DNA of 64,000 nt from assembly GCA_022826485.1 (NCBI GenBank), contig JAJDUU010000009.1, positions 1 through 64,000 of the forward strand, written 5' to 3'. Positions 31,200 to 54,457 of the stretch are shown here, in pieces. The position numbers and the translations under genes were made by a program. Source of the stretch: Chloroflexota bacterium. GTDB taxonomy: Bacteria > Chloroflexota > UBA11872. Every line of letters begins with the position of its first letter. Within the stretch, counting starts at the first letter, position 1. The notes beneath the pieces are model-generated. The model was not told where the DNA came from. It did not search any database and saw only the letters and a program-made list of their open reading frames with translations.

Positions 31200-31337
31200 T
31201 TGGTAGTGGGCGACTCTAAGTCCGTCATTCCCGCGAAGGCGGGAATCCACCCCTCCAAGTCAACCGACGAGTCCCGGGCGCCTGCCGGTGGTGGGTCACG
31301 ATCTGGCGCTCAGAGGTCGGAATCGCCCACTTCCCGA
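31200..31337. repeat. Family A MITE-like repeat (about 138 bp) with terminal inverted repeats, between hisD and hisB
   Basis: Left end TTGGTAGTGGGCGACTC (31200-31216); right end reads GGGAAGTGGGCGATTCC on the opposite strand; internal palindrome TCATTCCCGCGAAGGCGGGAATCCA. Confidence 0.75.
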
Positions 31338-32650
31338 TCCTGGCGGCGCTCGGCGGCCCGCGCGTGGCCTTCCAGCCGTTCCGCCCGCGCCATGCGGGCG
31401 GCGACCGGGGCCAGGCGCTGGGAGTCTTCCGCCCCAAGCCGCACCACGCTCATGGACTTGAGAAACGCGTAGACCCCGCACGGCGACGCGAAGCGCGCGG
31501 TGCCCCCGGTGGGCATGACGTGACTGGGACCGGCCACATAGTCGCCGTGGACCTCGGGCGAGCCCGCGCCGACGAACACGCCGCCGGCGTTGCGCACGCC
31601 TTCGAGCAATCGCTCTGGATCGTCCACCAGCAGGCAGAGATGCTCGGGCGCGTATTCGTTGGCCAGCGTCACGGCCTCGTCTAGATTCGCCACGACGCCC
31701 ACGCCGCCGCGCGCGGCAAAGCTGTCGGCCGCGATGTCGCGACGGGGAAGCGACGCCAGTTGGCGCTCGATCTCGTGGGCGATTCGGGTAGCAAGCGCGG
31801 CAGTGTCCGTGAGTGCGATGGGGCTGGCCGGACCGCCGTGCTCGGCCTGGGCGATGAGGTCGGCCGCGACATCGGACGGATCGGCGGTCGCGTCGGCGAT
31901 GACCAGGGTCTCGGTCGGTCCCGGCAGCACGCTCACGCCGGTGAGGCCGAACACCTCACGCGTCGCCAGGACCACCCAGGCGTTGCCAGGGGCTACGACC
32001 GCGTCGCAACGGGGCACCGACGCCGTGCCCACGGCCATGGCGGCAATGGCCTGCGCACCGGAGACCAGGAACACCCGATCGACCTCGGCCGCGTGCGCCG
32101 CAAGGGCGATGACGGGATCGATGCCATCCTCGGCGGCGGCCGTGCAGACCACGATCTCGCGCACGCCGGCCACGCGGGCCGGGATGGCCGTCATGAGCAC
32201 CGACGAGGCCAGCGGACCGGAGGCGCCGGGAATGTGGATCCCGGCGCGATCCACGGGCGTCCAGCGCTGCCCCACGCCGCTCGACTCATCGAAGAAGTCC
32301 GTTGGCAGCTGGCGCTGGTGAAAGGCGCGGATGCGTTCGGCGGCGATTTCGAGGTCGGCCGCCAGGTCGGGCGGAGCCTGGGCGCACGCGTCGGCAAGCT
32401 CCTCCGGGCTGACCTCGAAGCGCGAAGGAATGTGGTCGCCGACCTTGGCGGCGATCTCTCGCAGCGCGGCGTCGCCGTCGGTTTGTACGCGCTCGACAAC
32501 CCTGGCGACGAACTCCCGCGGGCTCAGCGACTCGCCAAAGACCGCCGATGCACGCTGCCGCGCCGCCTCGTCGACGACGGCCAGCTCACCGTGCCTGGCG
32601 ATCAGCTCCCGGCGCACGGCGTCGGCGCCGTGAACGATGCGAATGTTCAC
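31310..32650 (-). CDS. hisD: Histidinol dehydrogenase
   Basis: GIHIPGASGPLASSVLMTAIPARVAGV; VAPGNAWV; DQxIAQAEHG-type active site; AGPSHVMPTGGTARFASP. Confidence 0.95.
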   Translation of the reverse strand: MNIRIVHGADAVRRELIARHGELAVVDEAARQRASAVFGESLSPREFVARVVERVQTDGDAALREIAAKVGDHIPSRFEVSPEELADACAQAPPDLAADLEIAAERIRAFHQRQLPTDFFDESSGVGQRWTPVDRAGIHIPGASGPLASSVLMTAIPARVAGVREIVVCTAAAEDGIDPVIALAAHAAEVDRVFLVSGAQAIAAMAVGTASVPRCDAVVAPGNAWVVLATREVFGLTGVSVLPGPTETLVIADATADPSDVAADLIAQAEHGGPASPIALTDTAALATRIAHEIERQLASLPRRDIAADSFAARGGVGVVANLDEAVTLANEYAPEHLCLLVDDPERLLEGVRNAGGVFVGAGSPEVHGDYVAGPSHVMPTGGTARFASPCGVYAFLKSMSVVRLGAEDSQRLAPVAARMARAERLEGHARAAERRQDREVGDSDL

Positions 32651-36702: not shown

Positions 36703-36732
36703 CCGTTCGTGGTGAGCCTGTCGCACCACAAG
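36703..36732. repeat. Degenerate copy of a GTTCGTGGTGAGCCTGTCG-type intergenic repeat
   Basis: CCGTTCGTGGTGAGCCTGTCGCACCACAAG; reverse strand reads VRQAHHERHW, a familiar repeat-encoded string. Confidence 0.4.
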
Positions 36733-36792
36733 TGGCGCCGGCCCTGCGCCGACCGGGATTGGCCCATGTCCCGGCGTCGCGCGAAATTCGTT

Positions 36793-36881
36793 CCAAGAAT
36801 TGTGGCGGCGAACGCCACATACCGTGGTACTGTTTCCGAGGTGTCAGGTTCCGCGTGGAACCTGCAACGTTAGATTCTTGG
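36793..36881 (+). ncRNA. Predicted structured 5' leader (three-way junction) of the RRM gene
   Basis: Perfect stems P1 CCAAGAAT/ATTCTTGG, P2 TGTGGCG/CGCCACA, P3 CAGGTTCC/GGAACCTG, with P2 and P3 nested inside P1. Confidence 0.6.
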
Positions 36882-36960
36882 CTGCGACCGCGGAGTGTGC
36901 GGCGGGCAAGGTTGGCGGATCAGGCGAGCGTCGCATGAGTTCCGCGGAAGGTTTAGCTGG

Positions 36961-37320
36961 ATGAATATCTTTGTAGGCAATCTGCCGTTCGTGACGACCG
37001 ATGACGAGCTTCATGAGCTCTTCGCACGTTACGGCGAGATCACTCGAGCCACGGTGATCAAGGACCGCGTGACCGGAAAGTCACGCGGTTTTGGCTTTGT
37101 CGAGATGATGGACGACGAGATGGCTCGTCAGGCCATCGAGGCCCTCAACGGCTCCGACCTGATGGGTCGCGCGCTGACCGTGAACGAGGCGCGCCCGCGC
37201 GAGTCTCGCCCGCGTAGCGGTGGCTACGGTGGCGGCGGCGGCGGTGGCGGCTACGGCGGCGGTGGCGGTGGCTACGGCGGCGGTGGCGGCGGCTACGGCG
37301 GCGGCGGCGGGCGCTACTAG
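36961..37320 (+). CDS. RRM-domain RNA-binding protein with glycine/tyrosine-rich C-terminus
   Basis: MNIFVGNLPFVTTDDELHELFARYGEITRATVIKDRVTGKSRGFGFVEM (RNP2 and RNP1), then GGYGGGGGGGGYGGGGGGYGGGGGGYGGGGGRY. Confidence 0.95.
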   Translation: MNIFVGNLPFVTTDDELHELFARYGEITRATVIKDRVTGKSRGFGFVEMMDDEMARQAIEALNGSDLMGRALTVNEARPRESRPRSGGYGGGGGGGGYGGGGGGYGGGGGGYGGGGGRY

Positions 37321-44697: not shown

Positions 44698-44833
44698 GTG
44701 CGAAAGTCCTTTACGAACTCCTCCGTCATTCCGGCGGAAGCCGGAATCCAGTCCGGTCGAACCTGGCGGCGTGCTGGATGCCCGGCGTAGGGGCGGATTC
44801 GTAGCCCGCCCCACCGACGTCTACAAACGTCTC
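44698..44833. repeat. Family B MITE-like element, copy 1 (about 135 bp)
   Basis: Contains CTCCGTCATTCCGGCGGAAGCCGGAATCCAGTCCGGTCGAACCTGG, near-identical to the reverse complement of 54267-54314. Right end GTCTACAAACGTCTC. Confidence 0.65.
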
Positions 44834-44999
44834 CGCGGCGAGACGGCGGCAATGCCGGCGCGGCACCAACCGTTACTCCGCGAAACGCCAAGACCTCAAG
44901 GCAACTATAGACCGGGGCCGACGGTGACTTTGAACACGTGCTCGGCTGCGGCTCGTGTGGGACATTGCCGCTGCGTCGCTCCAGGGCCGCGCCATATCG

Positions 45000-45707: not shown

Positions 45708-46328
45708 ATGGCCGCGCATCCGGTCTGGGGACTCACCGGCAATATCGGCGCGGGCAAGTCAACCGTTGGCGGCATGCTGCGCGAGCTTGGCGCGCGAGTG
45801 ATCGACTCCGACGCGACGGTGCGCACGCTGCTGGAGTCGGACGAGGCCGTGATGCGGGAAGTGCGCGCCGCCGTTCCGGCGGCCCGACGACCCGACGGCG
45901 GCATCGACCGCGCCGCCGTGGCGCGGGAGGTATTCGCGGACCGCGGGAAACTCACGGTGCTGCAGGACCTGCTGTACCCATCCGTCGGCAAGGCGACCGA
46001 GGCGCTGCTGGCGGAGGCCACAAACGCACCCGTGACGTTCATCGAGGCCATAAACGTGGTCGAAGGGCCATCCGGGAGTCGCCTGGAGGGGTTGTGGCTC
46101 GTCGAGGCCGATTCGGAGGTGCTGGTCGAACGCGTGGCCGCGAGCGGGCGTCTTTCAGTCGCCGAAGTTCAGGCCCGCCTGGCGATGCAGGCCGGTCCCG
46201 AGGCGAAAGCCGAGGCGTTTCGGGGACTCCGCCCGGGGCGACCGATCGTGCGAATCAGCAACAACGGCTCGCTGGAGGAGCTGCGGACCCAGGTGACCGC
46301 CCGCTGGAACGATCTGCCGGCCGGTTAG
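45708..46328 (+). CDS. coaE: Dephospho-CoA kinase
   Basis: VWGLTGNIGAGKSTVGGMLRELGARVIDSDATVRTLLE. Confidence 0.88.
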   Translation: MAAHPVWGLTGNIGAGKSTVGGMLRELGARVIDSDATVRTLLESDEAVMREVRAAVPAARRPDGGIDRAAVAREVFADRGKLTVLQDLLYPSVGKATEALLAEATNAPVTFIEAINVVEGPSGSRLEGLWLVEADSEVLVERVAASGRLSVAEVQARLAMQAGPEAKAEAFRGLRPGRPIVRISNNGSLEELRTQVTARWNDLPAG

Positions 46329-46507
46329 TCGCGAGCGATCTCGCTGGGGGAGTTGTCGGGCTCGGTTTCCTGGGAGAGGCGGCTGCGCCATTTGCCCCGC
46401 ATGTAGAACAGCGACAGGATTTCCTGCGGCGATAGTCCCTTGTCGGTCAGATCGCGGACTTCGCGGCGGATGCGATTGGATCGTTGGCGGGTGTCTTCCT
46501 GCCCCAT
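46325..46507 (-). CDS. Small hypothetical protein (60 aa)
   Basis: MGQEDTRQRSNRIRREVRDLTDKGLSPQEILSLFYMRGKWRSRLSQETEPDNSPSEIARD; amphipathic and charged, convergent to coaE. Confidence 0.45.
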   Translation of the reverse strand: MGQEDTRQRSNRIRREVRDLTDKGLSPQEILSLFYMRGKWRSRLSQETEPDNSPSEIARD

Positions 46508-46632
46508 CCTGTGGAACTCCCACGCCTGGTCGGCGGCACAGCCAGCGCGACCCGATATTAAGGCGGCGCGCCAAGCGCCAGCAAGTACCGGTACCCGCCA
46601 TGCGGCGCGCCCGCGAACTGGGCGATTTCGGC

Positions 46633-54181: not shown

Positions 54182-54200
54182 TCCGTCATTCCCGCGGAGG
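54182..54200. repeat. Left half of a family A core repeat, interrupted by a family B element
   Basis: TCCGTCATTCCCGCGGAGG. The right half GCGGGAATCCACC resumes after 54338. Confidence 0.75.
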
Positions 54201-54332
54201 GAGACCTTTGCATAAATCTGTAGGGGCGTGTCTCAGACTCGCCCGACGCGAAGCATCTGGCGCGCTTCCAGGTTCGACCGGACTGGATTCCGGCCTCCGC
54301 CGGAATGACGGAGGGGTTTACGCAAAGGTCTC
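54201..54332. mobile_element. Family B MITE-like element, copy 2 (132 bp), flanked by 6-bp direct repeat CGGAGG
   Basis: Ends GAGACCTTTGC...GCAAAGGTCTC (11-bp perfect TIR, about 17 bp imperfect). TSD CGGAGG at 54195-54200 and 54333-54338. No ORF of note. Confidence 0.85.
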
Positions 54333-54373
54333 CGGAGGCGGGAATCCACCTCTCCATGACCCGCACCCCCTTT

Positions 54374-54457
54374 CGTCCTTCCGAGCAACGCGAGGAATCT
54401 AAGGGGCGCGGCGCCTGCGCCAACGTCTTTAGATTCCTCACTGCGTTCGGAATGACA
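54374..54457. repeat. Family C imperfect palindromic repeat, copy 2
   Basis: CGTCCTTCCGAGCAACGCGAGGAATCTAAG...CTTTAGATTCCTCACTGCGTTCGGAATGACA; parallels 49920-50002. Confidence 0.75.

Follow-up and report, generated by a model that had tools for sequence, protein, structure and literature searches.

In E. coli the cspA gene, which is small and of the RNA-chaperone type, is preceded by a long conserved 5'UTR. Bacterial RRM proteins are poorly understood beyond the cyanobacteria and Bacteroides, and each of these groups offers a case that comes close to the locus described here. The 5'UTR of rbpA1 in Anabaena variabilis is tied to cold-regulated expression, going by the titles of Sato & Nakamura 1998 and Ehira et al. 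2005 as they are cited in PMC6091082. In Bacteroides thetaiotaomicron the rbpB mRNA carries a binding site for RbpB (PMC11697453). Our literature search found no papers joining RRM, sponge and Chloroflexota. This work concerns the DNA in front of an RRM gene in a 64 kb stretch of a Chloroflexota genome (the window), and coordinates below are positions in it, with all features of the locus on the plus strand. This DNA is under strong constraint and is probably a promoter followed by a 5'UTR, for which we propose a mechanism of control.

The gene lies at 36961-37320 and encodes a 119-aa glycine-rich single-RRM protein (Pfam RRM_1, E 5e-24); the glycine-rich tail is evident on inspection of the sequence. 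A genome-wide search returned it as the one RRM match in its own genome, and a search of the same genome detected no cold-shock-domain (CSD) protein. A Shine-Dalgarno-like GGAAGG is found at 36946-36951. No intrinsic terminator was found around the gene.

We compared the leader in six species, the window genome and five relatives (G001, G002, G004, G005 and one contig of G018). It is found once in each of the relatives, always before the same RRM gene, and the 82-aa RRM domain is 98-100% identical among the loci sharing it. G018 is placed in the sister genus, and its contig with this leader may be a binning error, since the assembly has 8% contamination and carries a second, sister-genus RRM copy. 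Synteny between that contig (G018:C24, L129) and the window stops precisely at the RRM stop codon (window 37320). The conserved block, which we read as promoter plus 5'UTR, runs from 36797 to 36950 and is near-invariant in the six species. Its left edge at about 36797 is sharp, and the intergenic DNA just upstream aligns poorly among the six. A REP-like palindrome, TTCGTGGTGAGCCTGTCGCACCA, sits in this variable DNA upstream of the promoter at 36706-36728; the window holds one copy within 3 mismatches, and similar pieces occur at the same place in some relatives. Among the 100-nt stretches of the window with at least 4 relatives aligned, 36851-36950 ranks first, being 98% invariant against a mean of 78%.

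The constraint on the leader is easily stated: 14 of its 160 columns vary in the six sequences, and 7 of the 120 nearest the ATG. It is not due to low divergence, because 25-26 of the roughly 42 fourfold-degenerate codon sites of the RRM gene vary in the same six species. Coding is an unlikely cause as well. In G002 the frame that runs open into the RRM gene is closed by a stop immediately before the RRM ATG, which speaks against an N-terminal extension of the RRM protein from the GTG at 36895. Covariance models from Rfam, the cspA leader included, gave no match in the window at the gathering threshold. With the limit relaxed to E 1, the RRM leaders at five loci gave none either, and the only hits were tRNAs and one sub-threshold match overlapping a tRNA, elsewhere in L109. 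A known RNA family is therefore rejected as the identity of the leader.

A few other places in the window deserve a remark. The stretch 46325-46600 is well conserved and holds no gene in rough gene calls; an open frame on its minus strand, with ...SLFYMRGKWRSRLSQETEPDNSPSEIARD at its end, may be a short missed gene. At 31200-31340, 44740-44880 and 54199-54457 the comparison with relatives gives alignment gaps or short repeated matches, and these suggest dispersed repeats or insertions between genes.

The promoter match is an extended -10 element, TGGTACTGT (TGG TACTGT), at 36825-36833, invariant in 6/6 species. No other motif of its type is found in the 400 nt before the RRM gene, and it lies at -136 in this genus (6/6). 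No classical two-hexamer promoter of the TTGACA/TATAAT type was found near the gene. The compared part of the window has four sites with the pattern TGnTAnnnT, of which three are intergenic, fully conserved and each upstream of a gene; TGGTACTGT at 36825 is one of the three. Near 30 tRNA genes of the same genome the pattern is found upstream (within 120 nt) of 6/30 and downstream of 1/30. The upstream sites are mostly at -18 to -22, TGGTACCGT and TGCTACCGT being examples, and TAnnnT accumulates at -20 to -11 before tRNA genes. Many tRNA genes have no extended -10 motif, and when the motif was counted more coarsely, over about 222 kb of the genome, the signal was weaker, with 3 same-strand versus 2 opposite-strand motifs upstream of genes. 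In eight species of the sister genus the one extended -10 motif in the same 400 nt lies at -231/232 in 8/8, exactly at the left edge of their conserved block; in this genus the block reaches about 28 bp farther upstream than the motif. The motif, its conservation and its likeness to tRNA promoters indicate that the transcript probably starts near 36840.

The initial annotation read 36793-36881 as a three-way-junction RNA that looked like a cis-regulatory element of the RRM gene or a target of autoregulation by its protein. Every pairing it described is present in the sequence: P1 (36793-36800 with 36874-36881), P2 (GTGGCG-GCGAA-CGCCAC within 36801-36819, arms 36801-36807 and 36813-36819) and P3 (CAGGTTCC-GCGT-GGAACCTG, 36845-36852 with 36857-36864). 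These exact stems speak for the junction, as does a folding z-score of about -5 in the window genome; the 99-nt fold of 36788-36886, which also contains a fourth, weaker middle stem, is stabler than dinucleotide shuffles (z -4.7, 0/200). A strict scan asked for two perfect hairpins, each with 7 bp or more, inside a perfect outer stem of 8 bp or more. It found this site alone in 64 kb and gave 0, 0, 0, 1 and 0 in five Markov-shuffled windows. The geometry is uncommon yet within reach of chance, since one shuffled window of the five has it. The orthologous leaders, which the annotation itself proposed to align, contradict the junction as a conserved element, for P1 and P2 are not kept and only P3 survives. 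P1 is perfect in the window genome only. In every one of the five relatives A.C replaces its central G-C pair (columns 17/97); the stem is further broken by a second mismatch in two of them and by a gap in another two. The 5' arm of P1 falls at the left edge of the conserved block, where the sequence is variable. In P2 a C.C mismatch is seen in 2/6 sequences. Not one pair is changed on both sides (0 in the alignment), so the losses come without compensation. The MFE folds of the five relatives lack P1, a junction-like fold appears in 1/6 leaders (the window's own), and the z-score is about -5.4 there versus -0.2 to -1.7 in the relatives. A start near 36840 would also make the 5' arm of P1 and all of P2 promoter DNA, and that arm is most likely absent from the RNA. 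Judging from the alignment, the three-way junction is a coincidence limited to one species, and as a regulatory element of the RRM gene it is very improbable. The broader idea of a cis-regulatory RNA leader survives insofar as a constrained non-coding leader, probably a 5'UTR, lies directly 5' of the glycine-rich RRM gene; the junction fold is the part that falls. The same repeats could be read at the level of DNA, as a complex promoter/operator bound by a transcription factor, with the P2 dyad spanning roughly -39 to -21 relative to the inferred start and P3 near +5. Both are inverted repeats adjoining the -10, and in this genus conservation extends upstream past the -10. We consider this unlikely. 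Conservation runs about 110 nt beyond the -10 to the Shine-Dalgarno, longer than usual operators, and the sister genus g2 keeps almost nothing upstream of its own -10. Every other site in the genome differs from the P2 dyad by 3 mismatches or more, which also disposes of P2 as an operator common to several genes.

Two further readings concern translation. P4 (36888-36895 with 36940-36947) encloses P5 (36897-36904 with 36929-36936), and together they form an invariant two-part hairpin at 36888-36947 that abuts the Shine-Dalgarno. They include the pairing of CCGCGG at 36888-36893 with CCGCGG at 36942-36947, both confirmed, the second overlapping GGAAGG, and it was this pairing that the annotation thought might control translation initiation. 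A thermosensor or riboswitch-like RNA would then mask the ribosome binding site (RBS). The pairing is perfect and invariant, and in Hydrogenedentes a conserved block of the RRM leaders can form as many as 11 bp with the RBS, more than shuffles do in 2/3 tested. However, the AAGG core of the Shine-Dalgarno lies outside P4, CCGCGG is self-complementary so that chance pairing is easy, and P4 is not predicted to weaken between 20 C and 50 C. The RBS has an unpaired probability of 0.39 versus 0.35 in shuffled leaders, so the pairing stands while the control suggested for it is not borne out by accessibility. No column of P4/P5 varies, which leaves no room for covariation. With z-scores of -0.6 to -1.6 in the six species, the 121-nt UTR shows no unusual stability, and the same holds for that of the sister genus. 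Predicted structures, with accessibility like that of shuffles and no opening with heat, speak against an RBS-sequestering thermometer in this genus, and we regard RBS sequestration here as improbable. The other reading is translational coupling through a possible minimal uORF at 36935-36964 (ATG AGT TCC GCG GAA GGT TTA GCT GGA TGA). An 8-9-codon version with its stop overlapping the RRM ATG is found in 6/6 species, which speaks for coupling, but it lacks a good Shine-Dalgarno, a 9-codon ORF is easily accidental, and coupling leaves the conservation of 36797-36934 unexplained. We give this reading the least credence of all.

The reading we prefer, and hold to be somewhat probable, is that 36797-36960 comprises an extended -10 promoter and a 5'UTR of about 120 nt serving post-transcriptional control that is autoregulatory and/or linked to cold. 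Transcription from the TGGTACTGT promoter would start near 36840, and the RNA would open with hairpin P3 (36845-36864) about 5 nt from its 5' end. P3 is kept in 6/6 species with one A-U/G-U change. After it would come an invariant, mostly single-stranded stretch at about 36865-36887, then P4/P5, then the Shine-Dalgarno and the ATG. The loops and linkers of the leader are conserved along with the stems, and this suggests sequence-specific binding rather than fold alone, so the leader may be a sequence-specific binding platform. Binding by its own product is the simplest proposal because a glycine-rich RRM protein is encoded downstream. The RRM protein binding its own leader, and/or temperature, would then set the translation or stability of the RRM mRNA, in whichever direction, and the leader would act like the cyanobacterial rbpA1 5'UTR.

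In each of the sister genera g2 and g8 the RRM gene likewise follows a conserved leader particular to the genus, roughly 215 nt long in the first and perhaps 370 nt in the second. These leaders have no common 9-mer and show no similarity to the present leader, so a common origin of the sister-genus leaders is rejected. In g8, 5/6 species (L094, L095, L096, L099, L108) have in the RRM leader a hairpin of the GGTGCAC...GTGCACC type with a T-run behind it, at roughly -100 to -65 relative to the RRM start; an invariant GCAACGCCGTGC comes before it. This hairpin and T-run are a possible transcription attenuator. Long conserved stretches also precede the RRM genes of Acidimicrobiia, Hydrogenedentes and Bryobacterales. 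In Hydrogenedentes the RRM leaders have TGTTATnnT between -163 and -173 (7/7), and a strong TGTTATAAT-type -10 is seen in 7/7 loci (L039, L053, L060, L046, L072, L064, L073). Within about -125 to -1 these seven loci also conserve a GTCGATCAGCTCCT block with complementarity to the RBS, AGGAGTTGATC; this pairing shows little covariation. Since conserved leaders are found in the sister genera and in three other phyla, long conserved leaders seem to recur among bacterial RRM genes, judging by the loci from our one search.

Could the RRM protein stand in for a cold-shock protein? In 41 genomes of the class, 25 have RRM only, 11 CSD only, 5 neither and none both (counting CSD over the cut-off), an exclusion that is not independent evidence because it follows families. 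Over the 201 genomes of the phylum the two co-occur in about 33, so strict exclusion phylum-wide is rejected. One Chloroflexota contig (G200:C94, L190) has a CSD gene and an RRM gene side by side, at 503-691 and 730-942. A bolder proposal is that the glycine-rich RRM genes of several phyla each evolved a long leader of their own, unrelated in sequence and under strong constraint, for RRM autoregulation, with RRM taking the role of CspA in CSD-less Chloroflexota. We offer this tentatively and think it has a minor chance of being right; if true, there is a convergent, recurring class of autoregulatory leaders.

The top-conserved leader of the compared window, together with the lack of detected CSD proteins, marks this RRM gene as tightly controlled. 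The lineage-specific conserved leaders of several phyla lead to a concrete prediction that can be put to the test, namely that RRM proteins in bacteria control the mRNAs encoding them. How does this locus compare with the described systems? It differs from E. coli cspA in protein family and has no Rfam match, and resembles it in having a long conserved leader before a small RNA-chaperone-type gene. As with cyanobacterial rbpA1, it is a leader, probably a 5'UTR, of a gene for a glycine-rich single-RRM protein. The phylum is unrelated, however, the likeness is one of description, and cold regulation, reported for rbpA1, would be a prediction here. RbpB comes from another phylum too, and a binding site in the present leader is hypothetical, but both are bacterial RRM proteins and RbpB's own mRNA has a binding site, implying possible autoregulation.
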